Assembly (NCBI RefSeq): GCF_009653635.1
Contig: NZ_PPFD01000004.1
Location: forward strand, 186,001-250,000
Direction of reading: 5' to 3'
Origin: Endozoicomonas sp. OPT23
GTDB taxonomy: Bacteria > Pseudomonadota > Gammaproteobacteria > Pseudomonadales > Endozoicomonadaceae
Length of the DNA stretch: 64,000 nucleotides
Positions 43,680 through 59,904 of the stretch are shown piece by piece. The notes below the pieces were generated by a model, which was not told the DNA's origin, did no database searches, and worked only from the letters and a program-made list of their open reading frames with translations. Position 1 is the stretch's first letter. Every line of letters starts with the position of its first letter. The position numbers and the translations under genes were made by a program.

Positions 43680-43700
43680 AGCTGCTCATTAGAGATGGAA

Positions 43701-43726: not shown

Positions 43727-43750
43727 ATGGTCGACGATAGAAACCTGGCT

Positions 43751-43851: not shown

Positions 43852-45152
43852 TGACTGTAAAGCAACCCCGGTAACCAAAGAGAAATAGCCGGTACCAGAA
43901 GTAGCAGCACTAATCGCACTATATCAGCACACCAGAAGGGTGTAACACCACGAAAAATAGTACTGGTCTTGATGTCTTTGATAACACTGCTCAACACAAA
44001 GATATTCAATCCTACCGGTGGCGTAATCAGACTGATCTCGGTTACAACCACAACGATTATTCCAAACCAGACCAGGTCAAACCCCATACTCTGCACCAAG
44101 GGAAAGAACACGGGCACCGTCAACAACAACATAGACAGGCTTTCGAACACCGTTCCCAATATGATGTAAATGGCAATAATGGCCAGCATCACGAGAAAAG
44201 GTTCAGCGCCCACCGATTGAATCAGACCCACCAGTTCCTGAGGCAAGCCAGCCCTGTTAACGAAGTTGGAATAGATCAGTGCACCTATTATCACCCCGAA
44301 CAGCATAGTCGAAGTTCGTGCTGTTTCGATAAGGATTTCCTTTAAAACAGCAAGCGTTAGGGTTCCCCGAAACAGAGCAATAAAGAAGGCTCCGGCTGCG
44401 CCAATACCAGCGGCTTCTGTAGGTGTAAATATACCGCCATAGATCCCCCCCATTACCAGCGCAAACAGACCCAGTATTGACGACACTGACCGTAAGGCAT
44501 GCCACTTTTCCTTACTGGATAACTTCTCTCCTGCAGGGCCCGCCTTCGGATTGCGCCATACGACATAACGGGTCGCCAGCATATAAAAAACAATGCCCAG
44601 TAAACCTGGCAGGAAGCCTGCGGCAAACAGATCACGAATACTCTGCTCGGTCAGAACACCGTAGATTATCAGAATGACACTGGGAGGAATCAGAATCCCT
44701 AAAGTTCCACCCGCAGCAATGGAGGCTGAAGCCAGAGCATCGGAATAGCCATACTTGCGCATGGATGGCATGGCTACCTTGGCCATAGTGGCAGAAGTTG
44801 CCAGGCTGGAACCGGAAATAGCCGAGAAGCCACCGCAGGCAGCGACGGTAGCCATTGCCAGGCCGCCCCGCTTATGTCCAAGAAAGGCATAACAGGCTTT
44901 GTACAGTTCCTGCGAAAGACCTGCGCGGGTAATAAAATTACCCATCAGGATAAACATCGGGATAACCGACAGGCCATAATCCTGAGCAGTATCAATCATA
45001 CGACGAGCACTGACTGAAAGAGCCCCGTTGAAATTCCAGTCGCCCAGAGCCGCATAGCCAATAAAACCAATTGTACCCATCGCGAAAGCAATGGGCATGC
45101 GCAATAGAATAAGAAACATCAGGGCCGCGAAGCCGATCAGAGTGATTGTCAT
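43848..45152 (-). CDS. TRAP transporter large permease DctM
   Basis: The 434-residue inner-membrane protein has the DctM layout of about 12 helices and family segments GALSVSARRMIDTAQDYGLSVIPMFILMGN split over two blocks, GGFSAISGSSLATSATMAKVAMPSM and ITPPVGLNIFVLSSV. It imports carboxylates with sodium. It follows dctQ after five bases. The context next to phenylacetate genes and the shared operator suggest an aromatic or arylacetic acid substrate, which is an inference. Confidence 0.94.
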   Translation of the reverse strand: MTITLIGFAALMFLILLRMPIAFAMGTIGFIGYAALGDWNFNGALSVSARRMIDTAQDYGLSVIPMFILMGNFITRAGLSQELYKACYAFLGHKRGGLAMATVAACGGFSAISGSSLATSATMAKVAMPSMRKYGYSDALASASIAAGGTLGILIPPSVILIIYGVLTEQSIRDLFAAGFLPGLLGIVFYMLATRYVVWRNPKAGPAGEKLSSKEKWHALRSVSSILGLFALVMGGIYGGIFTPTEAAGIGAAGAFFIALFRGTLTLAVLKEILIETARTSTMLFGVIIGALIYSNFVNRAGLPQELVGLIQSVGAEPFLVMLAIIAIYIILGTVFESLSMLLLTVPVFFPLVQSMGFDLVWFGIIVVVVTEISLITPPVGLNIFVLSSVIKDIKTSTIFRGVTPFWCADIVRLVLLLLVPAISLWLPGLLYSH

Positions 45153-45157
45153 GCGGG

Positions 45158-45679
45158 TTACTCCTGATTCTCGTACTCTTTGTCCACCAGCCGGGTAATG
45201 ACCAGTACAAACGCCGTCACCGATGTCAGAAAACAGGATGCAGCGATAAAGTGAATGAAGTAGCTGACCGGAATTTCCAGATACTCGGTCACCTCTTCGT
45301 AGCCGGCCGCCCTATCTGCCAATCCCCAGACCTTCATACCAATGACAGCGAGACTGGAACCAATGCAAAGATCAAAGAACATATCACGGACTTTCTTTAA
45401 CCCTTCTGGAAATAGGTTATCGATCAGATCGACGACAATGTGTTCCTTGCGCCAGGTAATCAGAGGCATAGCGGAAAAGATCAGACAACCGAGCAACAGC
45501 TCGGTAATTTCGACACTACCAATCAAAGGGCTGTCAAATAGATACCGACCCAAAACATCGATACAGGTCACTACCATCAGGAAAAACAGTACACTGGCAG
45601 CGAACCATTTCAGGAGCCACTCGAAGCGCATGGCTCCGAGCTCCCAAAACCGGATCAGTGTGATAACGGTCTCTTTCAT
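45158..45679 (-). CDS. TRAP transporter small permease DctQ
   Basis: The 173-residue protein has four predicted membrane helices and the DctQ pattern FDSPLIGSVEITELLLGCLIF-SAMPLITWRKEHIVVDLI. It joins the binding protein and DctM into the complex. AAGAGG precedes the ATG at 45679. It lies nine bases after the binding-protein gene. Confidence 0.9.
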   Translation of the reverse strand: MKETVITLIRFWELGAMRFEWLLKWFAASVLFFLMVVTCIDVLGRYLFDSPLIGSVEITELLLGCLIFSAMPLITWRKEHIVVDLIDNLFPEGLKKVRDMFFDLCIGSSLAVIGMKVWGLADRAAGYEEVTEYLEIPVSYFIHFIAASCFLTSVTAFVLVITRLVDKEYENQE

Positions 45680-45688
45680 TACTGCCTC

Positions 45689-46717
45689 TTACAGTTGTAA
45701 AGGCTTATAATTACGAGCTTCTTCCTTGAAGGCATTAAGTGCCGCTTGTGCATCCACCTTGCGCTTCTTGACCGAACTCAGCCACTTATCTTCCATATCA
45801 GCAACCAACTGATTGAAGTAAGCAACATCCTCTTCCGAGGCAGGGATCACTTTACTGCCAGAGGCAATAATATCGGCTTCACCGACCTTGTCTGCCCTAT
45901 CCCAGAGCCTGCCAGCCAGAGCCGACAGTTTCTCACCGGAAACTGACAACACAGCCTTACGATCGCTGTCGGACAGTCGATCCAGAAAGTCAGGGCTCAG
46001 GAAAATACCAAAGGAGCCTAGATACAGACCGTTAGGCAGCTTGACGGTATAAGGTGCAACGTCCTTGAATCGTGCCACCTTCATCATATCCATCTGCATG
46101 AACAAACCATCCGCGACGCCCTGGGAAAGCATCTCATAGGCCTTATTGGCCGGAGCACTGACACCGGAAACACCTAGGCGCTTACCGACTTCTGCTGACA
46201 TACCACCGCCAATACGGACTTTCTTTCCCTTAAGATCTTTCAGTGATTTCAGCGGTTCACGCATATGCACCTGACCCGGACCATGGACAAACAAGCCTGC
46301 CAGTTGAATACCATTGTACTCACCGGATTTATTGAAGAACTGCTCATTTACCCGCCAGTGGGCAACAGAAATAGCTTCCGGTGAACCTTTAATATTGGGC
46401 AGTTCAGCCATCTGGGGGAGACGAAAACGTCCTGGCAGATAACCATGGAATGTCCATGAAGCATCTACGGCACCATCCTCAACCATATCCACCAGACTCT
46501 TTGGATGACCAACGTCGTATTCAAGTTTGACCTTGACCCGACCTTCCGTAGCCTCTTCGATCCATTTCCCCCAGGTCGGCAGGACATCTTTATTCATGGT
46601 ATGGGTCGGGCTCAGCCAGGTTGCTATCCGCAGCTGAGTATCTGCTGCCCAGGTGCCAGCCGCTGAAAGTCCCAGACCAATTGCCAGAATGCCGGTTGTT
46701 ATTTTTCTTTTAAGCAC
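45689..46717 (-). CDS. TRAP transporter solute-binding protein DctP
   Basis: The protein of about 342 residues starts at GTG 46717, preceded six bases upstream by AAGGAG, and has a cleavable signal peptide ending GTWA. The mature part begins ADTQLRIATWLSPTHTMN. The ligand-carboxylate Arg typical of DctP proteins probably lies in LKGKKVRIGGGMSAEVGKRLG. Upstream codons to 46828 are open but lack coding features. The substrate is not fixed by sequence. The operator-like repeat at 46815-46854 is about 100 bases ahead. Confidence 0.92.
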   Translation of the reverse strand: MLKRKITTGILAIGLGLSAAGTWAADTQLRIATWLSPTHTMNKDVLPTWGKWIEEATEGRVKVKLEYDVGHPKSLVDMVEDGAVDASWTFHGYLPGRFRLPQMAELPNIKGSPEAISVAHWRVNEQFFNKSGEYNGIQLAGLFVHGPGQVHMREPLKSLKDLKGKKVRIGGGMSAEVGKRLGVSGVSAPANKAYEMLSQGVADGLFMQMDMMKVARFKDVAPYTVKLPNGLYLGSFGIFLSPDFLDRLSDSDRKAVLSVSGEKLSALAGRLWDRADKVGEADIIASGSKVIPASEEDVAYFNQLVADMEDKWLSSVKKRKVDAQAALNAFKEEARNYKPLQL

Positions 46718-46814
46718 GGGCCACTCCTTGTTGTTATTTTCTGTGGAAACTCTCCCATCACTGAGTAGGAAAATTTCTGTATCCACAGCTTTTGTGTTGC
46801 CTTGAACGCATAAA

Positions 46815-46854
46815 GTGACACAGATCAATTTTTATTACAAAATTTTTGTATCAT
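46815..46854 (-). promoter_or_regulatory. Putative PaaX-type operator ahead of the TRAP operon
   Basis: GTGACACA (46815-46822) and TGTATCAT (46847-46854) match the paaA-site half-sites (6/8 and 8/8) with the identical 32-base spacing. The right half continues as TGTATCATATAAG, exactly as at the paaA site. The rest of the 347-base gap between dctP (46717) and the IS (47065) holds no gene that I can see. Confidence 0.6.
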
Positions 46855-47064: not shown

Positions 47065-47945
47065 GAGACTGTCTCAAAAGTGATCAGACACTAGCATGGA
47101 AGAATTTACAGACTTGAGCTAAATATTCCTCATCACCTGCTACGAGAGGAATATTATGTATCCCTCAGATTTGACCGATGATGAATGGAAACTTATCAAG
47201 CCTTTTTTTCCTGACCCTGGTTATGATAAGCCAAAAAATGGCAGGCTTAGAGACTGGCCTTACAGGCTAATTCTTGATGCCATTTTTTACGTTGATAAGA
47301 CGGGGTGCCAATGGCGACAAATGCCTTCTGATTTCCCTCCATGGGGTACCGTTTACACGTATTTTCGGAATTGGAAACTAGATGGCACATGGAAAATGGT
47401 TCACGACGCCTTGAGAGATCAAGTTCGAATTAATGCGAGGAAGTGCCCACAGCCAACAGCAGCTAGCATTGACACCCAAAGCGTTAAAACCTCTTTAAAA
47501 GGGGGCTCCGCGGATACGATGGCGGTAAAAAGTGCAAAGGTAGAAAGAGGCATATTGCAGTAGATACCTTTGGCTTGATTCTCGTGCTGTGGGTTCATTC
47601 AGCAGCTCTCAGTGACAGCCTCACAGGTCATATAATTCTTGCCTGTATAAAAAAGCACTTCAAAAAAGTGCGCAAAGTTTGGTCCGACTGTGGCTATAGA
47701 GGTTTTCTTGAAGAATGGTTTTATCGGCGTAAACCTAAAAGAGAGCTTGAGATAACTAAAAGACCACAGGGCAAATTCGTTGTTCAGGCAAAGCGCTGGG
47801 TAGTCGAGCGAACATTTGGCTGGTTTGAAGGCTCTCGCCGTCTGTCAAAGGACTATGAACAACTGCCAGAGAGCTCCGAGTTCTTTATCTATATATGTAT
47901 GATTCGAATGATGGTAAGGCGGCTTGTGTAGTTTTAAAACAGCCT
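47065..47945 (+). mobile_element. IS5-family insertion sequence (IS427-like)
   Basis: The element is about 880 bases long. Imperfect terminal inverted repeats are AGACTGTCTCAAAAGT (47066-47081) on the left and, on the right, the complement of AGGCTGTTTTAAAACT (47930-47945), 12 of 16 bases matching. It encodes a two-frame transposase. The exact outer bases and target duplication are uncertain; CTA on the left and TATA on the right hint at a TA-type target. A decayed relative lies at 54917-55265 in inverse orientation. Confidence 0.85.
47156..47931 (+). CDS. IS5-family transposase, two frames joined by a -1 shift
   Basis: The first frame (47156-47563) has the DUF4096 N-terminal domain (MYPSDLTDDEWKLIKPFFP, GCQWRQMPSDFPPWGTVY) and the first catalytic Asp in ASIDTQSVK. 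The second frame, one base back, is open from about 47497 to 47931 and contains RGYDGGKKCKGRKRH, the second Asp in VWSDCGYRG and the Glu in VERTFGWFEGSRRL. The change of frame falls at TTAAAAGGGGG (47495-47505). There the family consensus GGLRGYDGG is restored by slipping back one base on the G-run. This is either programmed frameshifting, known in this group, or a one-base loss. Confidence 0.82.
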
Positions 47946-48110: not shown

Positions 48111-49268
48111 TCATTTCTTTGCTGGCAGTCGGTTCTCAACCAGAGTCTGCCAGTAAGCGACACCTTTCATAAGTATATTGTCATTAAAATCATAGTTTGG
48201 CTTGTGCAGGGCATTACCGCCTTCAGTATCCACACCATTTCCCATAAGTATGTAGCAACTGTTCACTTCCCTTTGCATAAATGAAAAGTCTTCACTTATG
48301 GTCAGGGGCTGACAATCACCATCAACGTTTTCTGCGCCCAGCGCTTCCTGTGCAGCCTGAATAGCGTATTCAGTCTCTCTGGGTGAGTTGATGGTAGAAA
48401 GGAAGGTATTGGTGAATTTATATTTGTACTCAACACCTGCAGATGCACATTGCCCTGCAACAACCCGCTCAATCGCTGCTTCTATTTTCGCCAGTGCTTC
48501 GTCAGTAAAAGAACGGGTATCACCAGTAATTCTTACGTGAGATGGAATGACATTAACAGTGCCGTTGGTTGCAAATTCTGTCACCGAGATAACAGCGGTT
48601 TCACTGATTGCACTGAGGTTACGTGAAACAATAGTCTGCAGGGCACAAACAATCTGCGCACCCACAACAATAGGATCTGTTCCCATATGTGGTAGAGCGG
48701 CATGACCACCTGTTGCAATAATATCTATCTCGAAACTGCTCTCGCTTGCCATTATTGAACCAGAGCGGGTCAGTACCTGTCCGGCTCGAATGCCTGGCAT
48801 ATTATGGATAGCGTAGACAGCATCAATACTCCAGCGAGTGAACAGCCCGTCAGCTATCATCGCCTTGGCACCCATGCCATGTTCTTCGTCTGGCTGAAAA
48901 ATAAAATAGACTGTGCCGTCGAAGTTTCGGGTACGTGACAGTTCTGAAGCCGCCCCCAGTAACATAGAGGTATGTCCATCATGCCCACAGGCGTGCATAA
49001 CGCCTTCATTGACAGATTTATAGTCGAAATCATTGGTTTCATTAATCATCAGAGCATCCATATCAGCGCGTAAGCCGATAGAACGATCACTGTTGCCACA
49101 TTTCAGTATGCCAACAACACCTGTGCCACCAATATTTTGATGGACCTCTATACCAAACTCTTCCAGTTTCGCAGCAACAAAGCCGGCTGTCTGGTGTTCT
49201 TTTAACCCTGTCTCAGGATGCTTATGGAGGTGGTGTCTCCACCCAATGATCTGTTCCTGGATACTCAT
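48111..49268 (-). CDS. M20-family metallo-amidohydrolase
   Basis: The 385-residue enzyme has the M20D pattern of hippurate and N-acyl-amino-acid hydrolases: HHLHKHPETG near residue 12, GLRADMDAL (65-73), the metal-binding MHACGHDGHTSMLLG, FQPDEEHGMGAKAMI with the catalytic Glu, and the lid-domain GGHAALPHMGTDP. It removes an acyl group from an amino-acid-like amide in the cytoplasm. Next to a transporter and a diaminopropionate lyase, it may release 2,3-diaminopropionate from an N-acyl derivative; that is an inference. A terminator-like hairpin separates it from the BCCT gene. Confidence 0.88.
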   Translation of the reverse strand: MSIQEQIIGWRHHLHKHPETGLKEHQTAGFVAAKLEEFGIEVHQNIGGTGVVGILKCGNSDRSIGLRADMDALMINETNDFDYKSVNEGVMHACGHDGHTSMLLGAASELSRTRNFDGTVYFIFQPDEEHGMGAKAMIADGLFTRWSIDAVYAIHNMPGIRAGQVLTRSGSIMASESSFEIDIIATGGHAALPHMGTDPIVVGAQIVCALQTIVSRNLSAISETAVISVTEFATNGTVNVIPSHVRITGDTRSFTDEALAKIEAAIERVVAGQCASAGVEYKYKFTNTFLSTINSPRETEYAIQAAQEALGAENVDGDCQPLTISEDFSFMQREVNSCYILMGNGVDTEGGNALHKPNYDFNDNILMKGVAYWQTLVENRLPAKK

Positions 49269-49290
49269 AATTCAGTCTCAACAATTCGAA

Positions 49291-49326
49291 AATAAAAAAC
49301 CCCTTTCCGTTAAACGGTCAGGGGCG
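49291..49326 (-). terminator. Rho-independent terminator after the BCCT gene
   Basis: On the minus strand CCCCTGACCG and CGGAAAGGGG pair around a TTTAA loop and are followed by TTTTTTATTTT (down to about 49291). It lies between the BCCT stop and the M20 start and should reduce read-through into the M20 gene. Confidence 0.75.
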
Positions 49327-49353
49327 TGTTTGTTATGCCGATACTTTATTTTC

Positions 49354-50931
49354 TCAAGCTACCTGAGGGTTAGCCTCAATGGTTTTCGGCTGGCTCTCTT
49401 CCGCGAACTCCTTTACCGCTTCATCTGAAAATTCACTGCGGAACATTTTCACAGTACTTACCAGACAGAGGAATAGTACGAAAATGAGAGGAAGTGCAAA
49501 AATCAAACTGATGCTTTGAAGCAACTCGATACCTGAAGTACTACCCATCATCAGGGTAAGAGCCATAGCTGCCTGTGCAATAACCCAGATTGTGCGCATT
49601 TTGTTACTTGGGTTATCAGAGCCATCTTCACACATACTGCTCAGTACAAAGGTTGAACTATTGAGAGAAGTAATGAAGCAGGTGAACAAGGCAATAACCA
49701 CACCAAAGGAAATCAGTTTACCCATCGGGAAGTCTTCCAGCACAATAAACGTTGCGGCTTTAGAAGAAGCGGCAGCAGCCTTCAGGACTTCAGGTGAAGA
49801 TTCCAGACCGATAGTGCCGAAGAACGCTACCCAGATGAAGATACCGAGGCAAGGCAGAACCAGAGAGCCCAGAATGAATTCTTTAACGGTACGACCCTTG
49901 GATACGCGAGCAATGAAAGGACCAACAAAAGGAGCCCAGGCAATTGCCCATGCGTAGTAATAGATCGGCCAGCCGGAGATCCAGGAGGTTTCATCCTTGG
50001 CAGCAAAAGTTGGCAGCTTCAAAGCGTCGCTGAAGAAACCGTTGAGGTAGTTACCCAGGGTGTCAAAGTAAACGTTAACCATCAACTTGGTTGGGCCGAG
50101 GAGACCAACAAGGATGATCAGACCTGCCAATAAATAGAGGTTATAGTCAGAAAGACGACGGATACCGCCTTCCAGGCCGGTAGTAGTACAAATAATGGTA
50201 ATAACAGCAATCACACCAACCAGACAAGCCGTTACCAGATTAGAGGAAGGGATACCGAACAGGTATTCAATACTCACGCCCAGAGACAAACCGGTCTGTC
50301 CCAGAGAGGTAGATATACCGGCAATAGCACCAAATACACAGATGATATTGATCATCTTACCCATGGAACCATTCGCTTTATCACGTCCCCATGGCAGCAG
50401 GATGTTACTTACCAGACCATTTTCGTTCTTGCGGTACATCAGGTAACCGATAACCAGGCCCAGCACTGCAAATGAAGCCCATGCCTGAATACCCTGATGA
50501 ATAAAGGAGCGCTTCAGTGCAAAGGAAGCGGCAGCTGGAGTCATTGGTTCAATACCAGTAGTGACCAGTGGGTTCACGTAGTGGTAAACCGGCTCCGCCA
50601 CACCCCAATACAGCATAACTGTACCCATACCGGCGGAGAACAGCAGACCGATCCAGGAAATAGTGGAAAACTCAGGTTTCGCATCGTCCGGACCGAGACG
50701 AATCTGGCCATATTTACTGAAAGCAAAGAACATCATCATGGCTACAAATACAAAGGAGCCCGCGATGTAGACATAACCGAAAGTGTCAGTCAGATAGTTC
50801 ATGGTACCTATACCAACGGTATAGAGTGTATCCGGGAACAGAAGCCCCGCTAAAACGGTGATGACAATGAATGTCATCGTGCAGGTAAATAGCAGTTTAC
50901 CCTGTTTAAGTTCTTGTGTTTTTTCAGTCAT
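49354..50931 (-). CDS. BCCT-family transporter
   Basis: The 525-residue protein has the 12-helix betaine/choline/carnitine transporter fold, with MLYWGVAEPVYHYV (helix 4 signature) and PIYYYAWAIAWAPFVGPFIARVSKGRTVKEF (helix 8 signature, written here in two family blocks). In the aromatic box of helix 8 the betaine transporter pattern W-A-W-W-x2-W reads Y-A-W-A-x2-W, so two of four Trp are replaced. This suggests a substrate other than glycine betaine. Long C-terminal osmosensing extensions are absent. It belongs to the same minus-strand unit as the M24 and M20 genes. Confidence 0.9.
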   Translation of the reverse strand: MTEKTQELKQGKLLFTCTMTFIVITVLAGLLFPDTLYTVGIGTMNYLTDTFGYVYIAGSFVFVAMMMFFAFSKYGQIRLGPDDAKPEFSTISWIGLLFSAGMGTVMLYWGVAEPVYHYVNPLVTTGIEPMTPAAASFALKRSFIHQGIQAWASFAVLGLVIGYLMYRKNENGLVSNILLPWGRDKANGSMGKMINIICVFGAIAGISTSLGQTGLSLGVSIEYLFGIPSSNLVTACLVGVIAVITIICTTTGLEGGIRRLSDYNLYLLAGLIILVGLLGPTKLMVNVYFDTLGNYLNGFFSDALKLPTFAAKDETSWISGWPIYYYAWAIAWAPFVGPFIARVSKGRTVKEFILGSLVLPCLGIFIWVAFFGTIGLESSPEVLKAAAASSKAATFIVLEDFPMGKLISFGVVIALFTCFITSLNSSTFVLSSMCEDGSDNPSNKMRTIWVIAQAAMALTLMMGSTSGIELLQSISLIFALPLIFVLFLCLVSTVKMFRSEFSDEAVKEFAEESQPKTIEANPQVA

Positions 50932-50987
50932 GGGAACCTCTTAATCCTGATTGAGCGTACCGGAACATAAAATCGCTACGCTGTAAT

Positions 50988-51009
50988 CGGAACCAGCAAG
51001 CTGGCTCCG
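50988..51009 (-). other. Intercistronic hairpin between the M24 and BCCT genes
   Basis: CGGAACCAG (50988-50996) and CTGGCTCCG (51001-51009) pair with one G-U on the transcribed strand around a 4-base loop, nine bases past the M24 stop. There is no U-run, so it may stabilise the mRNA rather than end it. Confidence 0.45.
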
Positions 51010-51017
51010 ACCAGAAG

Positions 51018-52184
51018 TTACTTAATAACGATAAGTTCAGGTTCAGCGCGCTCGCTCAACCACTCAGCACCATCTTCGGTAATCACAATATTTTCTTCAT
51101 GAACCATGGACTTACCCGGTGCGTACAACATGCCAGGCTCTAATGTCATGATCATGCCGGGCTTCAACACTGTGTTGTCTGTTGCAGTATTGGAAGGACG
51201 CTCGGTCAGCTCAATACCCAGACCGTGGCCCAGACGACCAACGTCGTTACCCAGAGCACCATTCGCTTCCAGTACGCCCCACATAGCATTGTAAATATCA
51301 GTTGTAGTGTTGCCTGGACGGGCTGCTTCAAAACCTTTGGTAGTGGACTCATAAACCGCACGATAAGCTGCTTTGGTCTGTTCACTGGCATGGCCAAAGG
51401 CCCAGTTTCGGTCAAAGTCAGAAAAGTAACCGTCAAATACGGCACCGGTATCGATGATCAGTACATCACCTTTCTCAACAACACGATCAGTTGGCCCCAT
51501 GATAATGCTGTCGTAACCGTCAGGACCGGAACCGGCAATGATGTACGGACATTCGTCAGCGCCTTCGCGCAACATATCAATGCGGAACTGCTTACAAATT
51601 TCACGTTCGCTCATGCCGGCACGGGCATATTCAGGCAGTTTGGAAAAGCCAACATTGGTAATGCGGCAGGCTTCACGGGTTTTATCGATTTCAGCCTGAG
51701 ACTTGATCTGACGCAGACCATGAACAGCCAGAGAAACATCAACAAAGTCTTTGTTGACCATACCTTTCAACTGATTGAAGTTGTTAACCGGCATGCGCAG
51801 GTGAGACTCAATACCCAGCGTGGCACCTACACGACCGAAACGGGAAGCGATACCGTTAATAACGCCAGCAACCAGCGTAATTCCGTCGTCTTCCGGTTCT
51901 GGGGAAGGCCAGGTGATGATCTCATCAACCCAGGTGCTGGCCATGCCAGTCGCACCAATCTCCGGAATGATAGCTACAGGCTTTCCTTCAGCAGGAACAA
52001 CAAGAAACCATGGACGGGTAGGGCTGTGCCAGAATTGAGTGTGAAAGCCAGTGAAGTAGCGGACATTAGGCTCGGTAGTAAAAAGCATTGCATCCAACTG
52101 CATCTCACGCATCACAGTTTGAGCTCGTGCTGTACGGTTTTCGAATTCAGCTGTTTCAAAACCGCGACGTAGGAAATCAGTCAT
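51018..52184 (-). CDS. M24 (creatinase/aminopeptidase P fold) hydrolase
   Basis: The 388-residue protein has a creatinase-type N-domain (NVRYFTGFHTQFWHSPTRPW) and a pita-bread M24 catalytic domain. Metal ligands are seen as Asp in IIDTGAVFDGYFSDFDRNW (two Asp), His in LGHGLGIELTERP, Glu in TLEPGMLY and Glu in VHEENIV. M24 proteins include Xaa-Pro peptidases, creatinase, ectoine hydrolase (DoeA) and the DMSP lyase DddP, so family alone does not give the substrate. It is the first gene of the unit with the BCCT and M20 genes and is divergent from the YheO-type regulator. Confidence 0.85.
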   Translation of the reverse strand: MTDFLRRGFETAEFENRTARAQTVMREMQLDAMLFTTEPNVRYFTGFHTQFWHSPTRPWFLVVPAEGKPVAIIPEIGATGMASTWVDEIITWPSPEPEDDGITLVAGVINGIASRFGRVGATLGIESHLRMPVNNFNQLKGMVNKDFVDVSLAVHGLRQIKSQAEIDKTREACRITNVGFSKLPEYARAGMSEREICKQFRIDMLREGADECPYIIAGSGPDGYDSIIMGPTDRVVEKGDVLIIDTGAVFDGYFSDFDRNWAFGHASEQTKAAYRAVYESTTKGFEAARPGNTTTDIYNAMWGVLEANGALGNDVGRLGHGLGIELTERPSNTATDNTVLKPGMIMTLEPGMLYAPGKSMVHEENIVITEDGAEWLSERAEPELIVIK

Positions 52185-52291
52185 AACACCCTCACTGGCT
52201 GCAACCGCTCGTGAATGGCAAGTCGCTGCTCGGTTAAATATTGGGCACTATGATATATAGATAAAAGTTAAATATTTTGACCTGAATCACT

Positions 52292-52307
52292 GTTAACAAT
52301 AGTTAAC
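52292..52307. promoter_or_regulatory. GTTAAC-AATA-GTTAAC repeat in the divergent promoter
   Basis: Two copies of the palindrome GTTAAC (52292-52297 and 52302-52307) ten bases apart lie in the 308-base AT-rich region between the M24 gene and the regulator gene. They are a candidate operator for that regulator. No gene is seen in the region. Confidence 0.4.
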
Positions 52308-52492
52308 TTTTTATTATTTAAAATCAACTAAATACAACTAGGCTAATTGTAAAATGACCTTATTAGTGCACTTTATAGTCAAAAATACAGTCATATAATT
52401 AAAAATACTTAACTATACGGATTGATAATGCTGTTTACTTCGCACACAATACAGCCCTCAAAGTTCACTATATTTACCTAAGTATTGATTTT

Positions 52493-53200
52493 ATGAACGC
52501 AAAGAATTCCACTGGAAGCTCTTCAATTAATATGACTTTTACCAAGAAGGATGAAGAGTGCCTGGCTCGCCATGGTCTGCTGGCGGAAACCATTGCTGAC
52601 CTGATTGGCCCACACTGTGAAGTTGTTATCCACTCTTTTAAAAGCTTTGAAGACTCTGTGGTCAAGATAGTGAACGGTCATCATACAGGCCGAAAGATCG
52701 GTGCTCCTATCACAGATCTTGGTTTGAAAGTGTTCCGTGAATTTGAAGAGACAGGTGTCATGGCTCCCAAGAGCTATTTCACCAAGAATAAAGATGGGTC
52801 TCTGATGAAATCTACCAGTTGTATTTTGACTGGAGAGGATGACAGGGCAGTAGGTATGTTTTGCATCAATATTAACCTGTCTCACCCATTCCCGGAAATC
52901 ATGAAAACCTTGATGCCAGGAAACCTTGAAACGACCAACTTACAGACCAGTGAAAATTTCAGTACTTCCCCGTCAGATATTATTGAACAGGCATTGAGCA
53001 CTGCAATTCATGACATTGAAAACAATGCATCTGTAAATGCTAAAGGCAGAAAGAAAGCTATTACCAGAATACTCTTTGATAACGGTATTTTTGAATTCAA
53101 GGAAGCAACGACAATTGTTGCCGATGGACTGCAAATTACACGACATGCCGTTTACAAATACATTCGTGAGTTTAAATCGCAATTAAAGATCCAGAAATAA
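52493..53200 (+). CDS. YheO-type PAS/HTH transcriptional regulator
   Basis: The 235-residue protein has an N-terminal YheO-like PAS domain (about 25-140, with GPHCEVVIHSF, NGHHTGRKIGAPITDLGL and a TSCILTGEDDRAVGMFCININL core). The C-terminal HTH_22 domain (about 175-230) contains RKKAITRILFDNGIFEFKEA and ITRHAVYKYIREF. Regulators of this type sit next to amino-acid or D-amino-acid catabolic genes and usually sense a small ligand. It faces the M24-BCCT-M20 genes and precedes ridA and the lyase gene, so it probably controls both arms. Confidence 0.85.
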   Translation: MNAKNSTGSSSINMTFTKKDEECLARHGLLAETIADLIGPHCEVVIHSFKSFEDSVVKIVNGHHTGRKIGAPITDLGLKVFREFEETGVMAPKSYFTKNKDGSLMKSTSCILTGEDDRAVGMFCININLSHPFPEIMKTLMPGNLETTNLQTSENFSTSPSDIIEQALSTAIHDIENNASVNAKGRKKAITRILFDNGIFEFKEATTIVADGLQITRHAVYKYIREFKSQLKIQK

Positions 53201-53251
53201 ACTCTCGCACATCACACCTACAAACCAATAACTTGTTCCAAAGGTAGTATC

Positions 53252-53635
53252 ATGAAAAAAGTTATTAACACCGACCTCGCTCCTGCTGCTATCGGCCCTT
53301 ACTCTCAGGGTATCGCATTCCAGAACCTGACTTTTACTTCCGGGCAGCTTCCTCTTGACCCGAAAACAATGGCGTTTGTTGAAGGTGGCATCAGGGAGCA
53401 GTCCTATCAGTCTCTTAAGAACCTGAAGTCTGTTCTGGAAAAAAGCGGTGCTTCCATTGATTCCGTCATCAAAACCACGTGCTTCCTGGCCGACATGAAC
53501 GACTTTGCAGCTTTTAATGAGGTTTACACCGAAGTGTTCGGCACTGAGAATGCACCTTCCCGATCTTGCATTCAAGCAGCCTGCCTGCCTAAAAATGCAC
53601 TGGTAGAAGTTGAAGCTATCGCTTTCATTAATTGA
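53252..53635 (+). CDS. RidA-family enamine/imine deaminase
   Basis: The 127-residue protein has the RidA signatures APAAIGPYSQG (residues about 9-19), TSGQLPLDP and the conserved Arg in APSRSCIQAACLPKNALVEVE. RidA hydrolyses reactive enamine/imine intermediates such as 2-aminoacrylate released by PLP lyases. Its place directly before a diaminopropionate ammonia-lyase, which makes 2-aminoacrylate, fits that role closely. AAAGGTAG stands ahead of the ATG. Confidence 0.93.
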   Translation: MKKVINTDLAPAAIGPYSQGIAFQNLTFTSGQLPLDPKTMAFVEGGIREQSYQSLKNLKSVLEKSGASIDSVIKTTCFLADMNDFAAFNEVYTEVFGTENAPSRSCIQAACLPKNALVEVEAIAFIN

Positions 53636-53718
53636 GTAACACTTCGAAAGCTGTGCTGATAACTCAAAGGTCAGTCTGACTGGCCTTTACCTGCAATGCC
53701 ATTTTCAAGTGACTGATC

Positions 53719-54897
53719 ATGCTCAAATTCTCTAAAAACACTTTTTATACGGGCACGACCAGCCCTTTATTTACCAGCGAAATAGCCAGGAAAGTACGTT
53801 CCTTCCATAAGAAAATTGAAGGTTACACTCCAACTCCTCTGGTTTCGCTGCCTGCACTGGCAGAAAGGCTGGGCGTTAAATCAATTCAGGTTAAAGACGA
53901 ATCCTATCGTTTCGGGTTGAATGCTTTTAAAGTTCTCGGTGGCTCCTATGCCTTAGGTCGATTACTGGCAGAACACCTGCAAATTGATATTGATGAAGTA
54001 GATCTGAAAACTATCTCGTCAAAACTGAAAAAACCTCTGATTTTTGCCACAGCCACTGCAGGCAATCATGGCACAGGTGTCGCATGGGCTGCTCGCGAAA
54101 TGGGACAGACCGCGGTTGTCTATATGCCGAAAGGTTCTCCTCAAGCGAGTGTCGACCGCATTCGAGGTCTGGGAGCAGAGTGTATAGTAACCGACGTCAA
54201 CTATGACGATACGGTTCGCCTTGCCAGCCAGACATCAGATAAAAATGGCTGGATGCTGGTTCAGGATACCGCTTGGGAAGGGTACGAAAAGATTCCAACC
54301 TGGATCTCTCAAGGTTACACAACCATGGCTGCAGAAGCTCTGGAGCAAACTGCAGAAGCGCCGACACACGTAATGCTTCAGGCTGGCGTAGGAGCCATGG
54401 CTGGAGGCATTCTGGGGTATCTGGCTGATGAGTTGGGATCAGAGAATTTCAACACCGTTATATCCGAACCCAGAGCTGCTGACTGTATTTATCGATCAGG
54501 TACTAGTAAAGCTGGTGACATGATTAGTGTTGATGGAGACCTCAACTCAATTATGGCTGGTTTGGCCTGTGGTGAACCCAATCCTTTAACATGGCCTGTG
54601 CTTCGCGATTGTAGCAATGCCTTTGCATCTGTAACAGATAGTGTAACAGCTACCGGTATGCGTATACTTGGCAATCCTCTACAGGGAGATACAGCTATAA
54701 TCAGTGGTGAGTCAGGCGGCATTAACATGGGCCTTCTTTACCAGATGGCTGTACATCCGGAAGGAAAATTACTTGCTGAAACCGTAGGCTTAAATAAAGA
54801 TTCTGTTGTTCTTATCTTCAGCACAGAGGGTGATACAAACCCTGAGCGTTATCGACATATTGTCTGGGAAGGTTCTCTCCCAACAACCAAAGACTAA
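53719..54897 (+). CDS. dpaL: Diaminopropionate ammonia-lyase
   Basis: DpaL (YgeX) is a PLP enzyme that converts 2,3-diaminopropionate to pyruvate and two ammonia. The 392-residue length and the blocks EGYTPTPLVSLPALAERLG, RFGLNAFKVLGGSYA with the PLP Lys, ATAGNHGTGVAWAAR, QDTAWEGYEKIPTWI, MLQAGVGAMAGGILGYL and GLACGEPNP are diagnostic. Related threonine dehydratases lack the WEGYEKIPTWI block. It follows ridA and ends beside an IS remnant. Confidence 0.94.
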   Translation: MLKFSKNTFYTGTTSPLFTSEIARKVRSFHKKIEGYTPTPLVSLPALAERLGVKSIQVKDESYRFGLNAFKVLGGSYALGRLLAEHLQIDIDEVDLKTISSKLKKPLIFATATAGNHGTGVAWAAREMGQTAVVYMPKGSPQASVDRIRGLGAECIVTDVNYDDTVRLASQTSDKNGWMLVQDTAWEGYEKIPTWISQGYTTMAAEALEQTAEAPTHVMLQAGVGAMAGGILGYLADELGSENFNTVISEPRAADCIYRSGTSKAGDMISVDGDLNSIMAGLACGEPNPLTWPVLRDCSNAFASVTDSVTATGMRILGNPLQGDTAIISGESGGINMGLLYQMAVHPEGKLLAETVGLNKDSVVLIFSTEGDTNPERYRHIVWEGSLPTTKD

Positions 54898-55326: not shown

Positions 55327-56829
55327 TTATCCCATCGTTGGCATCGTAAAAACAGACTCGGCCTTGTCATGCTCAGTCCAGCGGGTCGTTACCATTTTCA
55401 TACGGGTATAAAAACGAACACTATCCGGCCCGTGCATATGCAGAGGTCCAAACAAGGATTTCTTCCATCCGCCGAAACTGTGGAAAGCCATAGGAACGGG
55501 TACAGGAACATTCACTCCAACCATACCTACCTGAATATGTTGAGCAAACTCTCTGGCTGCCTTACCGTCTCGGGTAAACAGCGCTGTGCCATTGCCATAT
55601 TCATGATTGTTAATCAGTTCTACTGCATCCTTAAAGCTATCTACACGGCAGACGGATAAAACAGGGCCAAAGATCTCCTCCTTGTAGACAGTCATTTCAG
55701 GGGTAACACGATCAAATAAAGAAGGTCCTGTGAAATGCCCCCCTTCATGTCCTTCAACAGTCAGTCCGCGGCCATCAATCAGAAGTTCTGCGCCTTCATT
55801 AACGCCTGTGTTTATATAACCTGTTACCTTTGCCAGATGCTGCTCACTGATCAATGCACCCATGTCGTTTTCCGGCCCTTCGACAATACCCGGGCCTACT
55901 TTCAGTGCGTCTATCTTTGGCATCAGTGCGCTTAACAGTTTTTCAGCGGTACCTTCTCCCACTGGAACCGCTACAGAAATAGCCATGCAGCGTTCGCCAG
56001 CAGCGCCATAAGCTGCGCCCATCAGTGCATTGGCTGCAGCTTCCATATCTGCGTCTGGCATAATAACCATATGATTTTTAGCACCACCGAGTGCCTGAAC
56101 CCGCTTGCCGTGCTTACAACCAGTGTTGTAAATATGTTCTGCCACCGGCGTAGAACCTACAAAACTGATCGCTTCTACCTTTGGGTGAGTCAGTAGCACA
56201 TCAGCTACTTCCCGGTCACCGTTTACGATATTGAAAACACCATCGGGCAATCCGGCTTCTTTCAACAACTCTGCCAGCCGCATCATGGCACCGGGCACTT
56301 TTTCAGAAGGCTTCAATACAAAGGTATTACCGCAGGCCAGCGCTACCGGGAACATCCACATAGGCACCATCACCGGGAAGTTAAATGGCACGACTCCGGC
56401 GCATACACCCAGCGGCATCATCTGTGACCAGCTATCAACACCTGAACCTACGTTCATGGAGTGTTCGCCTTTTAATAGATGTGGAATCCCTGTTGCAAAC
56501 TCAACAACCTCCAGGCCTCTGGTCAACTCTCCCTTTGCATCAGATAAAATCTTGCCGTGTTCACGAGAAATAATATGGGCCAGTTCATCGGCATTCTGTT
56601 CGACCAGCTCTTTGAATCGAGCCATGATGCGTGCTCGTTTTAGTGGACTGGTCAAGGACCATGCTGGAAATGCTCTTGATGCTATTTCGATAGCCTGAGC
56701 TGTTTCGTCCGCTGTAGACAATTGCACAACCGCAGTTTGCTCGCCTGTGGCTGGATTGAATACTGCACCGACCCGATCAGAAACACTGGGTTCAGAATGG
56801 CCGTTTATAAAGTTGTAGATGGTTTTCAT
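55327..56829 (-). CDS. mmsA: Methylmalonate-semialdehyde dehydrogenase (IolA/MmsA)
   Basis: The enzyme oxidises malonate or methylmalonate semialdehyde with CoA to acetyl- or propionyl-CoA, the last step of inositol breakdown. The 500-residue ALDH has PFNFPVMVPMWMFP, GAAYGAAGERCMAISVAV with the catalytic Cys and LGGAKNHMVIMPDAD. These blocks separate the CoA-acylating family from other ALDHs. Its place beside iolG and iolB points to the inositol role (iolA), although valine breakdown is also possible. Confidence 0.95.
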   Translation of the reverse strand: MKTIYNFINGHSEPSVSDRVGAVFNPATGEQTAVVQLSTADETAQAIEIASRAFPAWSLTSPLKRARIMARFKELVEQNADELAHIISREHGKILSDAKGELTRGLEVVEFATGIPHLLKGEHSMNVGSGVDSWSQMMPLGVCAGVVPFNFPVMVPMWMFPVALACGNTFVLKPSEKVPGAMMRLAELLKEAGLPDGVFNIVNGDREVADVLLTHPKVEAISFVGSTPVAEHIYNTGCKHGKRVQALGGAKNHMVIMPDADMEAAANALMGAAYGAAGERCMAISVAVPVGEGTAEKLLSALMPKIDALKVGPGIVEGPENDMGALISEQHLAKVTGYINTGVNEGAELLIDGRGLTVEGHEGGHFTGPSLFDRVTPEMTVYKEEIFGPVLSVCRVDSFKDAVELINNHEYGNGTALFTRDGKAAREFAQHIQVGMVGVNVPVPVPMAFHSFGGWKKSLFGPLHMHGPDSVRFYTRMKMVTTRWTEHDKAESVFTMPTMG

Positions 56830-56871
56830 TGTAATTTTTTTCCCGGATAACTTACGACGTAAAGTGATTAA

Positions 56872-57858
56872 TCAAAGATAAACTGTCTGACCAGACTTCA
56901 GGGACTGGTAGCAGGCATCAGCCAGTTCGAGTGCTTTCACACCATCATCGATGGATACATCCGGTTTATTTCCTTCTGTCACAGAATCAACAAAGGATTG
57001 AAGTTCTCTTCTATAGGCCGGCATGTAACGTTCAAGGAAGAAATGCAGAGGTTTTTCACTGATATCGCCTTCAGAACCCAAGTAGCGAACTTCGTTCTCT
57101 TTATGGTTCGCTGCTTGCAACATGCCCTTTTCACCCAGCAGTTCAATGCGCTGATCGTAACCGTAAGCTGCACGACGACTGTTGTTGATGTGGCATAATT
57201 TTCCGCTGGCTGTTTTCAGCGTAACCATCGCTGAATCGATATCACCTGCTTCAGCAATCGCCGGATCTACCAGGCAGCTGCCAGTGGCATGAACCTCTAC
57301 CGGCTCTTCTCCCAGCATCCAGCGGGCCATATCCAGGTCATGAATCATCATATCCCTGAACAAACCTCCGGATACCTTGATATAGCTAACAGGTGGCGGA
57401 GAAGGATCACGACTGGTAATCACTAATTGTTCAAGATTGCCTATTCGTCCGGCTTGTTTGTCCTGATAGAGCGCATTGAAGGTCGGGTCAAAACGGCGAT
57501 TAAAACCAAGGAAACAAAGCACACCTGTTTCTTTGATGATGTCTGCAACGTGACGAGCTCGATCAATATCCAGATCTACCGGTTTTTCACAGAAAATTGC
57601 TTTGCCTGCCAGAGCCGCTTTTTCAATCAATCCGGAGTGAGTATCTGTTGGGCTGCAAATCAGAACAGCATCGATGGCTGAGTCTGCAAAAACAACATCA
57701 GCGTCCACCACTTTAGCCTGGAATTTTTTTGCTACGGCCATCGCGGCATCCGGAAAAGGATCAACCACGTATTTGAGGTTCGCGTCAGGGTGCTCACTTA
57801 AAGTCTGACCATGGACGTTGGCAATACGTCCTGCACCAAACATGGCAAAATTAAGCAT
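56872..57858 (-). CDS. iolG: Inositol 2-dehydrogenase
   Basis: IolG oxidises myo-inositol to 2-keto-myo-inositol with NAD. The 328-residue Gfo/Idh/MocA protein has the Rossmann motif FGAGRIANVHG at residues 7-17, the catalytic EKPVDLD segment, GFNRRFDPTF and the active-site DMMIHDLDMARWMLG. These are the typical IolG residues. It lies between iolB and iolA in one minus-strand unit. Confidence 0.94.
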   Translation of the reverse strand: MLNFAMFGAGRIANVHGQTLSEHPDANLKYVVDPFPDAAMAVAKKFQAKVVDADVVFADSAIDAVLICSPTDTHSGLIEKAALAGKAIFCEKPVDLDIDRARHVADIIKETGVLCFLGFNRRFDPTFNALYQDKQAGRIGNLEQLVITSRDPSPPPVSYIKVSGGLFRDMMIHDLDMARWMLGEEPVEVHATGSCLVDPAIAEAGDIDSAMVTLKTASGKLCHINNSRRAAYGYDQRIELLGEKGMLQAANHKENEVRYLGSEGDISEKPLHFFLERYMPAYRRELQSFVDSVTEGNKPDVSIDDGVKALELADACYQSLKSGQTVYL

Positions 57859-57948
57859 GATGATTCTCTTTTAATTTTTATTCTTACGACAACTATTTCC
57901 TGAATACCGGCTTTCTTTTGAATATCAGCTTTCGGAATTCAGATTTTA

Positions 57949-58761
57949 TTACTTCTTATTTGCTTCAACAATCCACTCGTGGGCAGGATCATTTTTAAAA
58001 ACCCAGTTACGTTTTGGGCCTGCCATAACATTCAGGTAGTAGAGATCGTAACCATGCGCAGCACCTACCGGGTGATAGCCTCTTGGTACCATCACAACGT
58101 TGTTATTCTCTACGGCCATGGTTTCATCCAGAGAGCGATCGTCGGTATAAACGCGTTGAAAAGCAAAGCCTTGAGGAGGGTTAACCTTGTGATAATAGGT
58201 TTCTTCCAACAGGGTTTCGACAGGTTCTGCATCCTGATCGTGCTTATGGGGAGGGTAACTCGACCAATGCCCGTTGGGGGTAATGACCTCACACACCAGC
58301 AAGCTTTCAGCAGAGCCTTCGTTAAACAAAATATTGCAGACATGTCGCTGGTTAGTGCCGGTGCCACGAGTCTGATATTCACACTCTTCAGGAAGAATCA
58401 GTTTTGCCGGGAAACGCCCTTCAGCAGGAGCCTTACAAACAGCCAGTTCGATATCGGTTTCAGCGACAATCGAAAAGAGATCAGAAGGTGGTATATAAAC
58501 ACTGTAAGGCGCTTTTTGATCGAAAACAGAATCACGGTCGCCAATTTGATTCCAGTTTTCATTACGAGTAGAGACATTTGCCTTGCCACTAACCAGTACC
58601 AGGCACACTTCATTGTTAACTGTCAGTTGCTCCAGGGACTGGCCTGCTTTCAATTGAAAGACTTCAAACCCCACATACTTCCAGTCTGCAGATTCAGGCG
58701 TAATGCTCTGAATACGCCCCTGTTGATCGGGCAGGGTCGGACGAGATAATAAAAACGACAT
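57949..58761 (-). CDS. iolB: 5-deoxy-glucuronate isomerase
   Basis: IolB converts 5-deoxy-glucuronate to 5-dehydro-2-deoxygluconate. The 270-residue cupin-like protein has HWSSYPPHKHDQD with the metal-binding His residues, LEETYYHKVNPPQGFAFQRVYT and VMVPRGYHPVGAAHGYDLYYLNVMAGP, all family marks. ATG 58761 has AGGA six bases upstream; the frame runs six codons further. It is the first gene of the iolB-iolG-iolA unit. Confidence 0.95.
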   Translation of the reverse strand: MSFLLSRPTLPDQQGRIQSITPESADWKYVGFEVFQLKAGQSLEQLTVNNEVCLVLVSGKANVSTRNENWNQIGDRDSVFDQKAPYSVYIPPSDLFSIVAETDIELAVCKAPAEGRFPAKLILPEECEYQTRGTGTNQRHVCNILFNEGSAESLLVCEVITPNGHWSSYPPHKHDQDAEPVETLLEETYYHKVNPPQGFAFQRVYTDDRSLDETMAVENNNVVMVPRGYHPVGAAHGYDLYYLNVMAGPKRNWVFKNDPAHEWIVEANKK

Positions 58762-58870
58762 AAAAAATCCTGTTATCAAACGCTATGCCCACCACCTTGA
58801 AAGACGGTAGACATATCAGAATACTCCATTAAATGGCGCTTATTCTGGATTCACTTTCAGTCTTCTCTGT

Positions 58871-58910
58871 AAAAAATGCCATTTGCCAGAACAATCCAAA
58901 ACAAATGGCA
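58871..58910 (-). terminator. Rho-independent terminator of the binding-protein gene
   Basis: TGCCATTTG (58877-58885) and CAAATGGCA (58902-58910) form a 9-bp stem; on the minus strand it is followed by TTTTTT. It lies 20 bases past the stop at 58930, so iolB needs its own promoter in 58762-58870. Confidence 0.85.
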
Positions 58911-58929
58911 CTGACTTTTTACATTCTAC

Positions 58930-59904
58930 TTAACGAATTTCACCAGCCAGTTTCTCAACCTGGGCAATATTGTCTTTGGTGATGAATCCGGGGCCGGAGT
59001 TAATGTTGTTGCTAGGAATAATGCCGTAGCGGCTGTACAAAGTAAGGGCAACTACTGGCAGATAACCTTGCAGGTAAGGTTGCTGGTCAATAGCAAACTT
59101 CACTTCACCTGATTTGATCGCCTTGGCAATGTCATCGCTAACATCAAATGTGCCAAAGTAGATGTCATCTGACTTATGCATCTTTTTCAGTGCACGAATA
59201 GTCGGATGTGCAGACGTTGGACCGAGGGCCAACACAGCATTTGTTTCAGGCTTTTGTCTCAGGTGAGCCATTACTTTCTTTTCAATCGCTGTCGGGTCAC
59301 TGCCAACATCAATCATGTTGCCATCAAGTGTTACACCAATTGCATCAGCAAACCCCTTGCATCGTTCAACGGACGCCGGGTTAGTAATATAGTGATTAAT
59401 GCAGGCAAAGCTGGTCACACCATCAGCCTTTGCTTTCTTACCAGCGCCATAACCCGCGTCGTATTCAGGTTGTCCAACATGGAGCAATGCGCCCAGTTGT
59501 TCACTTTGCTCATGGGTACCGGAATTGATCGTGATAACAGGGATGTTTTTGAGTTTAGCTTTTCTGAGTGGTTTCTTCAGTACATCGTAATCAGCAATGG
59601 TCAGGATTAAACCGTCGGGATTGGAGGCAATGGCCTGCTCGACGATTCTTGCCATATCAGCCAGATCACCAGTAGGCGGATTTCGGTATTCAACGGACAC
59701 ATCCATATCAGTACCGGCTGCTTTTACTGCATTCTTGATGGTGTTCCACCAGGAGTCTGAATCCGGTGCATGACTGACCAGAACAAAGCGTTCATCGGCC
59801 GCACTGGCTGACAACGGTGTCATCATGGTCGCTGCTGCAATACCTCCTAATAATACGGCTGCAGTCGTTTTTCTGAGAGTTTTCAGTTTTGTTGTTTTTG
59901 TCAT
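58930..59904 (-). CDS. Sugar/inositol ABC transporter periplasmic binding protein
   Basis: The 324-residue protein has a cleavable signal peptide (about 1-35, ending ASA) and the periplasmic-binding-protein type 1 fold of the ribose/inositol group: FVLVSHAPDSDSWWNTIKNAVKAAG, PDGLILTIADYD, VITINSGT and QQPYLQGYLPVVAL. Its neighbours suggest myo-inositol as ligand (IbpA-like). It is divergent from the permease gene, and GGAGAG precedes its ATG. Confidence 0.9.
   Translation of the reverse strand: MTKTTKLKTLRKTTAAVLLGGIAAATMMTPLSASAADERFVLVSHAPDSDSWWNTIKNAVKAAGTDMDVSVEYRNPPTGDLADMARIVEQAIASNPDGLILTIADYDVLKKPLRKAKLKNIPVITINSGTHEQSEQLGALLHVGQPEYDAGYGAGKKAKADGVTSFACINHYITNPASVERCKGFADAIGVTLDGNMIDVGSDPTAIEKKVMAHLRQKPETNAVLALGPTSAHPTIRALKKMHKSDDIYFGTFDVSDDIAKAIKSGEVKFAIDQQPYLQGYLPVVALTLYSRYGIIPSNNINSGPGFITKDNIAQVEKLAGEIR

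Follow-up and report, generated by a model that had tools for sequence, protein, structure and literature searches.

A six-gene cluster in Endozoicomonas sp. OPT23 is a real, conserved unit, occurring beyond chance, that probably (we put the probability at about 0.55) serves an ectoine-like derivative of 2,3-diaminopropionate through import, two hydrolyses, a beta-elimination, and clearance of the product by RidA. The cluster occupies positions 48111-54897 of the stretch of DNA analyzed here, hereafter the window (64,000 nucleotides; contig NZ_PPFD01000004.1, positions 186,001 to 250,000). One arm encodes an M20 amidohydrolase, a BCCT transporter, and an M24 metallohydrolase, and the divergent arm encodes a YheO-type regulator, RidA, and a lyase of the diaminopropionate ammonia-lyase (DAL) family. 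Gene content, conservation, residue patterns, co-occurrence, and repeat enrichment were established by direct observation. The initial annotation of this DNA had combined an ectoine-like plan of uptake and degradation, ending in DAL and RidA, with an EutD-like M24 hydrolase; the plan is supported, the EutD-like M24 is not. No described pathway with this set was known to that annotation, and our literature search, which covered open-licence papers, likewise found no published description. The set occurs in marine bacteria of several families. This may be a sign of a nitrogen compound plentiful enough, in the sea or its animals, to merit a dedicated pathway, and the gene set yields a short list of candidate compounds.

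Two divergent arms form a conserved unit

All six genes lie where the initial annotation had placed them and belong to the families that it had named, with Pfam matches for all six proteins and NCBIfam matches for five (the regulator had none). The features are listed below, with DAL residues such as Asp120 numbered here and throughout as in E. coli YgeX.

48111-49268, minus strand: M20D amidohydrolase/aminoacylase (P0003; PF01546), proposed second deacylation
49354-50931, minus strand: BCCT transporter with altered betaine box (P0002; PF02028, 498 bits), proposed importer
51018-52184, minus strand: M24 metallohydrolase (P0001; PF00557 and PF01321), proposed first hydrolysis
52185-52492, no strand: divergent promoter region with TTAACT/AGTTAA at 52266, 52301, 52303, and 52409, candidate regulator sites
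52493-53200, plus strand: YheO-type PAS_6 and HTH_22 regulator (P0004; PF08348 and PF13309, both above cut-off)
53252-53635, plus strand: RidA enamine/imine deaminase (P0005; TIGR00004, 162 bits, cut-off 106)
53719-54897, plus strand: DAL-family pyridoxal 5'-phosphate (PLP) lyase of the Ala120 clade (P0006; TIGR03528, 561 bits, cut-off 532)

Intergenic gaps within the arms measure 51-86 bp, and the divergent region 308 bp. The M24, M20, and BCCT proteins are identified at the level of family, as none of them reached the cut-off of an equivalog model.

A scan of a genome collection seeded with the M24 protein, which reached mostly close M24s and from which the best 80 of 87 candidates were kept, gave 75 loci and, with the window, 76 (loci rather than genomes, as a genome may contribute two; L031 overlaps with L040). 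A DAL lay near M24, that is, within 9 kb, in 60 of the 76 loci; YheO, DAL, and M24 were found together in 50 of 76, and 49 of these 50 also carried M20. Taken singly, the window-type M20 occurred in 63 loci, a gene resembling eutA (EutA-like) in 54, and the window-type BCCT in 14. A tblastn recount of the 75 loci, made without open reading frame (ORF) picking, gave consistent numbers (DAL 59, M20 62, EutA-like 54, YheO with DAL 49), with M20 in 48 and RidA in all 49 of the YheO-DAL loci. The RidA genes of the window and of L007 and the YgeY genes of L067 and L075 had escaped the ORF picker; tblastn recovered all of these except the window gene, the window being excluded from the recount. The 49 YheO-DAL-M24 loci outside the window belong to Shewanella (16), Photobacterium (11), Vibrio (8), Enterovibrio (5), Pseudovibrio (5), Polycladidibacter (2), Endozoicomonas (1), and an unplaced gammaproteobacterium (1). 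The 16 loci lacking a DAL carry a cystathionine beta-lyase (7), serine hydroxymethyltransferase (SHMT; 3), another PALP enzyme (1), or no PLP enzyme (5), and four of these last five end at a contig edge beside M24.

Because M24 had seeded the first scan, we made a two-sided count in 247 genomes of Vibrionaceae, the family of Photobacterium proteolyticum, with identities of at least 68% for DAL and at least 76% for M24. DAL was present in 35 genomes, M24 in 32, and both in 32, on the same contig and a few kb apart in the coordinates listed; that is, DAL occurred in 32 of 32 M24 genomes and M24 in 32 of 35 DAL genomes (in one DAL genome, G323, the gene is in two frames). In the three genomes with DAL only, the 7-16 kb of sequence retrieved contained no further gene of the set. 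As these genomes are related by descent, Fisher values for this co-occurrence overstate the evidence. Among 57 genomes, made up of the window genome and its relatives, M24 occurred in five, in 4 of 29 genera, and this patchy presence, in which the unit comes and goes, fits horizontal transfer. Ten annotated or re-called regions of plasmid relatives (M24 43-86% identical) were also viewed, and seven had a DAL near M24: Sinorhizobium and Agrobacterium regions combine Lrp, DAL, M24, ABC, and carbamoylase genes, and an Aliiroseovarius region M20, DAL, M24, and EutA-like genes. An Aminobacter region carries EutA-like, M24, M20, and cystathionine beta-lyase genes.

The M24 protein carries the metal site of prolidases

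The window M24 retains all five metal-ligand positions (D245, D256, H320, E349, and E363). These read D, D, H, E, E in 85 of 92 aligned M24-fold rows, window included, in an alignment that omitted rows shorter than 350 amino acids from the 75 loci as well as the L087 M24, which the ORF picker had missed. The seven rows without metal ligands are six EutD-type proteins and the second Bosea M24; the six EutD-type rows, of which one (L078) scored above the EutD cut-off, four at 485-574 bits, and one at 207 bits, read E, P/A, Y, M/I, T/S at the ligand positions. Because all five ligands are retained, and are absent in the EutD-type rows, we assign the window M24, from these residues, as a prolidase-like metallohydrolase and not an EutD. 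The initial proposal of an M24 ring hydrolase by analogy with EutD is thus not supported. The protein reached 82 bits against the EutD/DoeA model TIGR02993 (cut-off 613), its best equivalog being the PepQ dipeptidase at 141 bits (cut-off 630), and a search of the window genome found no EutD above cut-off, the best match being the window M24 itself (81 bits). Its AlphaFold model (pLDDT 90.4) matched the prolidase 4fkc best (TM 0.86/0.90); prolidase, dipeptidase, and Xaa-Pro aminopeptidase took the top three structural ranks, creatinase rank 4, and EutD rank 15. The TM scores of creatinase and EutD are similar to that of prolidase, so the fold alone is not decisive.

The window M24 shares its fold and its five metal-ligand positions with the Xaa-Pro dipeptidases and prolidases. 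It differs in that its family has an N-terminal motif of its own, QFWxSPTRPWF, nearly invariant in 35 aligned members, in that the gene usually adjoins those for a PLP lyase and a deacylase, and in that dipeptidase models score far below cut-off. These features bear on an alternative in which the locus scavenges dipeptides or N-acyl-dipeptides: the M24 enzyme, an imido- or dipeptidase, would free a dipeptide containing diaminopropionate, cysteine, or serine, M20 would remove an N-acyl cap, and the PLP enzyme would match the released amino acid. The kept metal site, the three top structural matches, and the variation of the PLP enzyme (DAL 60, cystathionine beta-lyase 7, SHMT 3, PALP 1, none 5 of 76) agree with it; the nearly invariant motif does not, an EutA-like gene (54 of 76 loci) would be odd for dipeptides, as would the two ectoine-type binding proteins of tripartite ATP-independent periplasmic (TRAP) transporters, and BCCT and TRAP transporters are not known to carry dipeptides. 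We regard dipeptide scavenging as unlikely, on a par with the ureide route considered below.

Comparison of the M24s of the seven cystathionine beta-lyase loci with those of 14 Ala120-DAL loci showed differences at several positions (T49S, Y214F, S226D/E, I228L, I243L, V315I, V361L, and others), of which I243 and V361 lie two residues from metal-ligand positions. Given such differences between PLP-enzyme types, the M24 seems tuned to the PLP enzyme that it feeds.

The deacylase slot and cyclic substrates

The window M20 scored 337 bits against TIGR01891 (cut-off 154) and 317 bits against the DoeB2 model, whose cut-off of 550 was not reached. C94, H96, E128/E129, H155, and H355, which we take to be metal or catalytic residues, are identical in 64 of 64 aligned M20s. 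The deacylase slot itself varies among loci: the window M20 type fills it in 63 of 76, six Thermodesulfobacteriota loci have a YgeY-like protein, of which that of L065 (585 bits, cut-off 321.5) lies beside M24 and DAL, and two Rhizobiales plasmids (L087, L088) have a carbamoylase above the TIGR01879 cut-off beside M24 and DAL. YgeY and YgeX together convert albizziin (3-ureido-2-aminopropionate) to pyruvate (PMC12507026).

Breakdown of 2-aminothiazoline-4-carboxylate to cysteine runs through a racemase, a ring hydrolase, and an N-carbamoylase to the amino acid, its known ring hydrolase belonging to another family than M24. The cystathionine beta-lyase sister clusters resemble this route; the window cluster has no sulfur enzyme. 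On such a plan, likened to hydantoin or aminothiazoline-carboxylate breakdown, the locus would open a cyclic ureide or guanidine by means of a racemase, an M24 ring hydrolase, a decarbamoylase of the M20/YgeY/HyuC type, and a PLP lyase, and the cysteine-type clusters would take the sulfur analogue. The YgeY of L065, the carbamoylases of L087 and L088, and the Aminobacter gene combination speak for it; against it, the window M20 is of the M20D aminoacylase type and not YgeY or HyuC. We therefore consider the ureide route improbable to about the same degree as dipeptide scavenging.

A narrower version of the proposed diaminopropionate route, which we hold to be doubtful and less likely than either of these alternatives, has as its substrate a natural five-membered-ring ectoine analogue built on diaminopropionate, for example 2-methyl-2-imidazoline-4-carboxylate, and makes the M24 enzyme a second, metal-dependent kind of cyclic-amidine hydrolase. 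This compound, DHMICA, is not known other than as a synthetic solute. If this version were true, the M24 mechanism would differ from that of EutD, and the sister clusters would be devoted to the sulfur analogue (a thiazoline) and the oxygen analogue (an oxazoline); this would account for the exchange of DAL there for cystathionine beta-lyase or SHMT. Halomonas elongata EctC hydrolyzes the synthetic ectoine analogue DL-DHMICA (PMC5924519), which means that a ring of this kind is accessible to enzymes.

A lyase clade separate from uric-acid YgeX

The window DAL exceeds the TIGR03528 cut-off (561 versus 532 bits) and retains the equivalents of YgeX Lys77, the PLP lysine, and Asp189; the window protein, like all 60 of the cluster DALs, has Lys at the position of the PLP lysine. 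No second close DAL was found in the window genome. Structural work on the E. coli enzyme reportedly suggested that the two bases are Asp120 and Lys77. In the window protein, Ala114 occupies the Asp120 position and Thr119 the position of Arg125. Across the alignment, all 84 rows of this kind (A-type) have Ala at position 120 and all 13 others have Asp, and fixed differences between the two occur at YgeX positions 105, 120, 125, 150, 153, 203, and 284; the 84 rows include duplicates (same genomes, two locus ids), and six divergent DALs and the 36-39% identical type were left out. The A-type DALs (30 rows) formed one group (SH-aLRT 99) in a tree of 59 rows picked for diversity, built by a quick method and with long-branch warnings. 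On this evidence the window lyase is assigned to a separate clade, distinct from the uric-acid YgeX. Neither RefSeq-type annotation (dpaL, diaminopropionate ammonia-lyase) nor TIGR03528 separates the two clades, which our analysis does.

YgeX is equally active on the L and D isomers (PMC12507026, portion covered). Since the clade lacks Asp120 and is distinct from the uric-acid enzyme, its substrate or stereochemistry may differ, and the loss of Asp120 suggests a lyase for a single enantiomer or for another beta-substituted alanine.

A second Vibrionaceae DAL, 57-61% identical and present in 27 genomes, has Asp120 and lay in the uric-acid gene set in six of six cases inspected, with YgeW, YgeY, HyuA, and YqeA as neighbors in all six and YgeV in five. 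The reductive uric-acid pathway (ygeVWXY-hyuA-yqeA) shares with the window a TIGR03528 DAL as last enzyme and an M20 enzyme just before it; it differs in that the window DAL clade has Ala120 and Thr125, and in that the window locus carries M24, BCCT, RidA, and YheO, none of YgeV, YgeW, YgeY, HyuA, or YqeA being among the cluster genes. The window DAL might still be taken to assist the anaerobic degradation of purine (uric acid), with unrelated genes as its neighbors, as YgeX is the last enzyme of the E. coli pathway (PMC12507026, portion covered). The Vibrionaceae uric-acid YgeX, however, is a separate Asp120 paralogue, M24 occurred in 0 of the 17 Vibrionaceae genomes that have it and no Ala120 DAL, and a search of the window genome found no YgeY above cut-off. 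Judged by these sequences, an accessory role is already contradicted and very improbable, and membership in the uric-acid route itself was ruled out by the neighbors, the DAL clade, and the lack of a YgeY above cut-off in the genome.

Transporters and the EutA-like gene support the ectoine parallel

The window BCCT scored 456 bits against the betaine equivalog NF047988, short of its cut-off of 650. Its motif YYYAWAIAW stands against FYWAWWIAW and FFWAWWVAW in aligned trimethylamine and choline transporters, and its HQG against their HWG and HYG, that is, changes of W to Y and W to A in transmembrane helix 8 and of W/Y to Q in helix 4; the residues forming the aromatic box are assigned as in BetP. 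The altered box proposed in the initial annotation is borne out by all 14 cluster-type BCCTs, 12 of them exactly as in the window and two, from Stappiaceae, with YYYAWGVAW.

The two TRAP binding proteins tested came from related clusters. That of Photobacterium locus L086 matched structures 3FXB, 3GYY, 2VPN, and 4PFI at 210-181 bits (next match 111), and that of L003 the same four at 176-170 bits (next 132). Both alignments retain a Glu, an Arg, and an Asn, presumably the anchors of TeaA, an aromatic residue of which is His in L086. We take 3GYY to be TeaA as well; 4PFI, the fourth near match of both proteins, has no named ligand here. 3FXB is UehA, and 2VPN is TeaA with ectoine (PMC5924519, portion covered). 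The ectoine parallel drawn initially is strengthened by these TRAP proteins, nearest UehA, TeaA, and 4PFI, and by the EutA-like gene, present in 54 of the 76 loci. Likewise, genes annotated ehuBCDA precede a Bosea M24 (~46% identity), where no DAL is present. Varied transporters, BCCT included, lie beside putative ectoine genes of Bacillaceae (PMC13188858), the covered portion of which does not describe the six-gene set.

The EutA-like gene, taken from L003, encodes a protein scoring 170 bits against TIGR02990 (cut-off 318) and 105 bits, also below cut-off, against arylmalonate decarboxylase. Two cysteines, which we take to be of the racemase type, are kept in 55 of 55 EutA-like proteins. The gene and the cluster-type BCCT nearly exclude each other: it is present in 1 of 14 loci with that BCCT, in 52 of 57 with other transporters only, and in 1 of 5 without a called transporter. 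Five more loci have a distant (~30%) BCCT nearby, together with EutA-like. No EutA-like gene was found in the window genome by a query that found the gene in genomes G207 and G214; the window route must therefore do without it.

Ectoine and 5-hydroxyectoine catabolism (eutABCDE/doeAB) shares with the window cluster an M24-fold hydrolase, a deacylase, and, by prediction, a diamino acid product, and with relatives of that cluster an EutA-like racemase, uptake of the BCCT, TRAP, or Ehu type, and, in sister clusters, Lrp regulators. The differences are that the window M24 has the metal site that EutD-type rows lack, that the window ends in DAL and RidA rather than Atf and Ssd, that its regulator is of the YheO and not the EnuR type, and that the EutD, DoeB2, and EutA models all scored below their cut-offs. 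None of Atf, Ssd, and EnuR is among the six cluster genes, to which this search was confined. Membership in the eut/doe ectoine route was ruled out by the M24 residues and the model cut-offs.

Repeats in the divergent promoter

A count over 49 intergenic regions between YheO and M24 gave 212 copies of TTAACT, as against a mean of 28 after shuffling, and its density there is 10.9 per kb versus 1.2-1.4 in intergenic regions outside the clusters. Upstream of seven cystathionine beta-lyase operons, three TTAACT were counted in 2.8 kb. The repeats are a candidate operator rather than a proven one, because the regions share descent.

Proposed route and the points that weigh on it

From these data we infer the reactions, their order, the regulation, and the substrate of what would be an inducible, patchily spread route whose substrate serves as carbon and nitrogen source. 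The substrate would be a derivative of 2,3-diaminopropionate that resembles ectoine and is N-substituted twice (by acylation, by carbamoylation, or as a cyclic amidine or urea), or a close beta-substituted alanine. The BCCT would import it, the M24 dinuclear metallohydrolase would cut the first C-N bond, in a linear amide or a ring, and M20 would take off whichever group, acyl or carbamoyl, is left. Beta-elimination of ammonia by the DAL-family lyase would then give 2-aminoacrylate and, from it, pyruvate and ammonia, with RidA clearing free aminoacrylate and the YheO regulator acting at the TTAACT repeats of the divergent promoter. Where relatives rely on other transporters, an EutA-like racemase is usually present as well and may supply the isomer accepted by the lyase.

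Several points weigh against this route. Asp120, reportedly one of the two catalytic bases of E. coli YgeX, is Ala in the window lyase, and because of this, and of the other PLP enzymes in 11 of 76 loci, free 2,3-diaminopropionate is uncertain as the substrate of the lyase. M24 scores higher against the dipeptidase than against the EutD model (141 versus 82 bits, both far below cut-off), so dipeptides, though less likely, may be its substrates. Among the plasmid regions, 3 of 10 (Aminobacter, Bosea, and Mesorhizobium) lack a DAL near M24. The commonest transporter of the relatives, EamA (46 of 76 loci), belongs to a family often linked to export, and the remaining intergenic DNA of the clusters is also rich in TTAACT (7.7 per kb). 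Finally, a clean link between Asp120 loss and the EutA-like racemase was considered and rejected: EutA-like is present in 38 of 52 Ala120 loci and in 3 of 8 Asp120 loci, so the racemase idea tracks the loss imperfectly, and the window genome has no such gene.

Sister clusters and neighboring genes

Seven sister clusters (L040, L042, L044, L045, L053, L055, and L068) carry Lrp, cystathionine beta-lyase, M24 (75-80%), EutA-like, and M20 genes with an APC or EamA carrier and no DAL. One of six sister-type M20s compared was DAL-like, in a subtype comparison that set aside the rows of L003, L021, L031, L056, L058, L060, L074, and L076. In Desulfobacterota (L061, L062, and L066) M24 occurs with an SHMT-like gene, and in Lentisphaerae (L046) with an unusual PALP enzyme of 496 amino acids (M24 identity 67-79% in these four loci). 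A second Vibrionaceae type (L085, L086, and L140) consists of Lrp, a divergent DAL, EutA-like, M20, TRAP, and M24 (58-59%). M24s of 56-59% identity occur in 19 of the 247 Vibrionaceae genomes, all 19 with a 36-39% identical DAL, which is itself found in 25 genomes. L138 and L139 are RidA-DAL-M20 units without M24, their DAL having Asp120, and in L014, L015, and L016 a single DAL-RidA pair and a single YheO are surrounded by two copies of M24 and three of EamA.

In the window, an IS4/5-type transposase in two frames (47156-47931) adjoins the M20 end of the cluster. Beyond it lie an AMP-binding ligase gene and a TRAP transporter (42375-46828), the latter distant from the ectoine-type TRAPs of the relatives. 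This TRAP (43848-46828) was considered as part of the system and rejected, its binding protein being 20.9% identical to the cluster type of L003, with the insertion sequence in between; its large permease is about 31% identical to that of L003. After the DAL gene, positions 55327-59904 hold genes resembling those of myo-inositol breakdown (aldehyde dehydrogenase, GFO/IDH/MocA oxidoreductase, KduI/IolB, and a periplasmic binding protein), which are outside the six-gene set.

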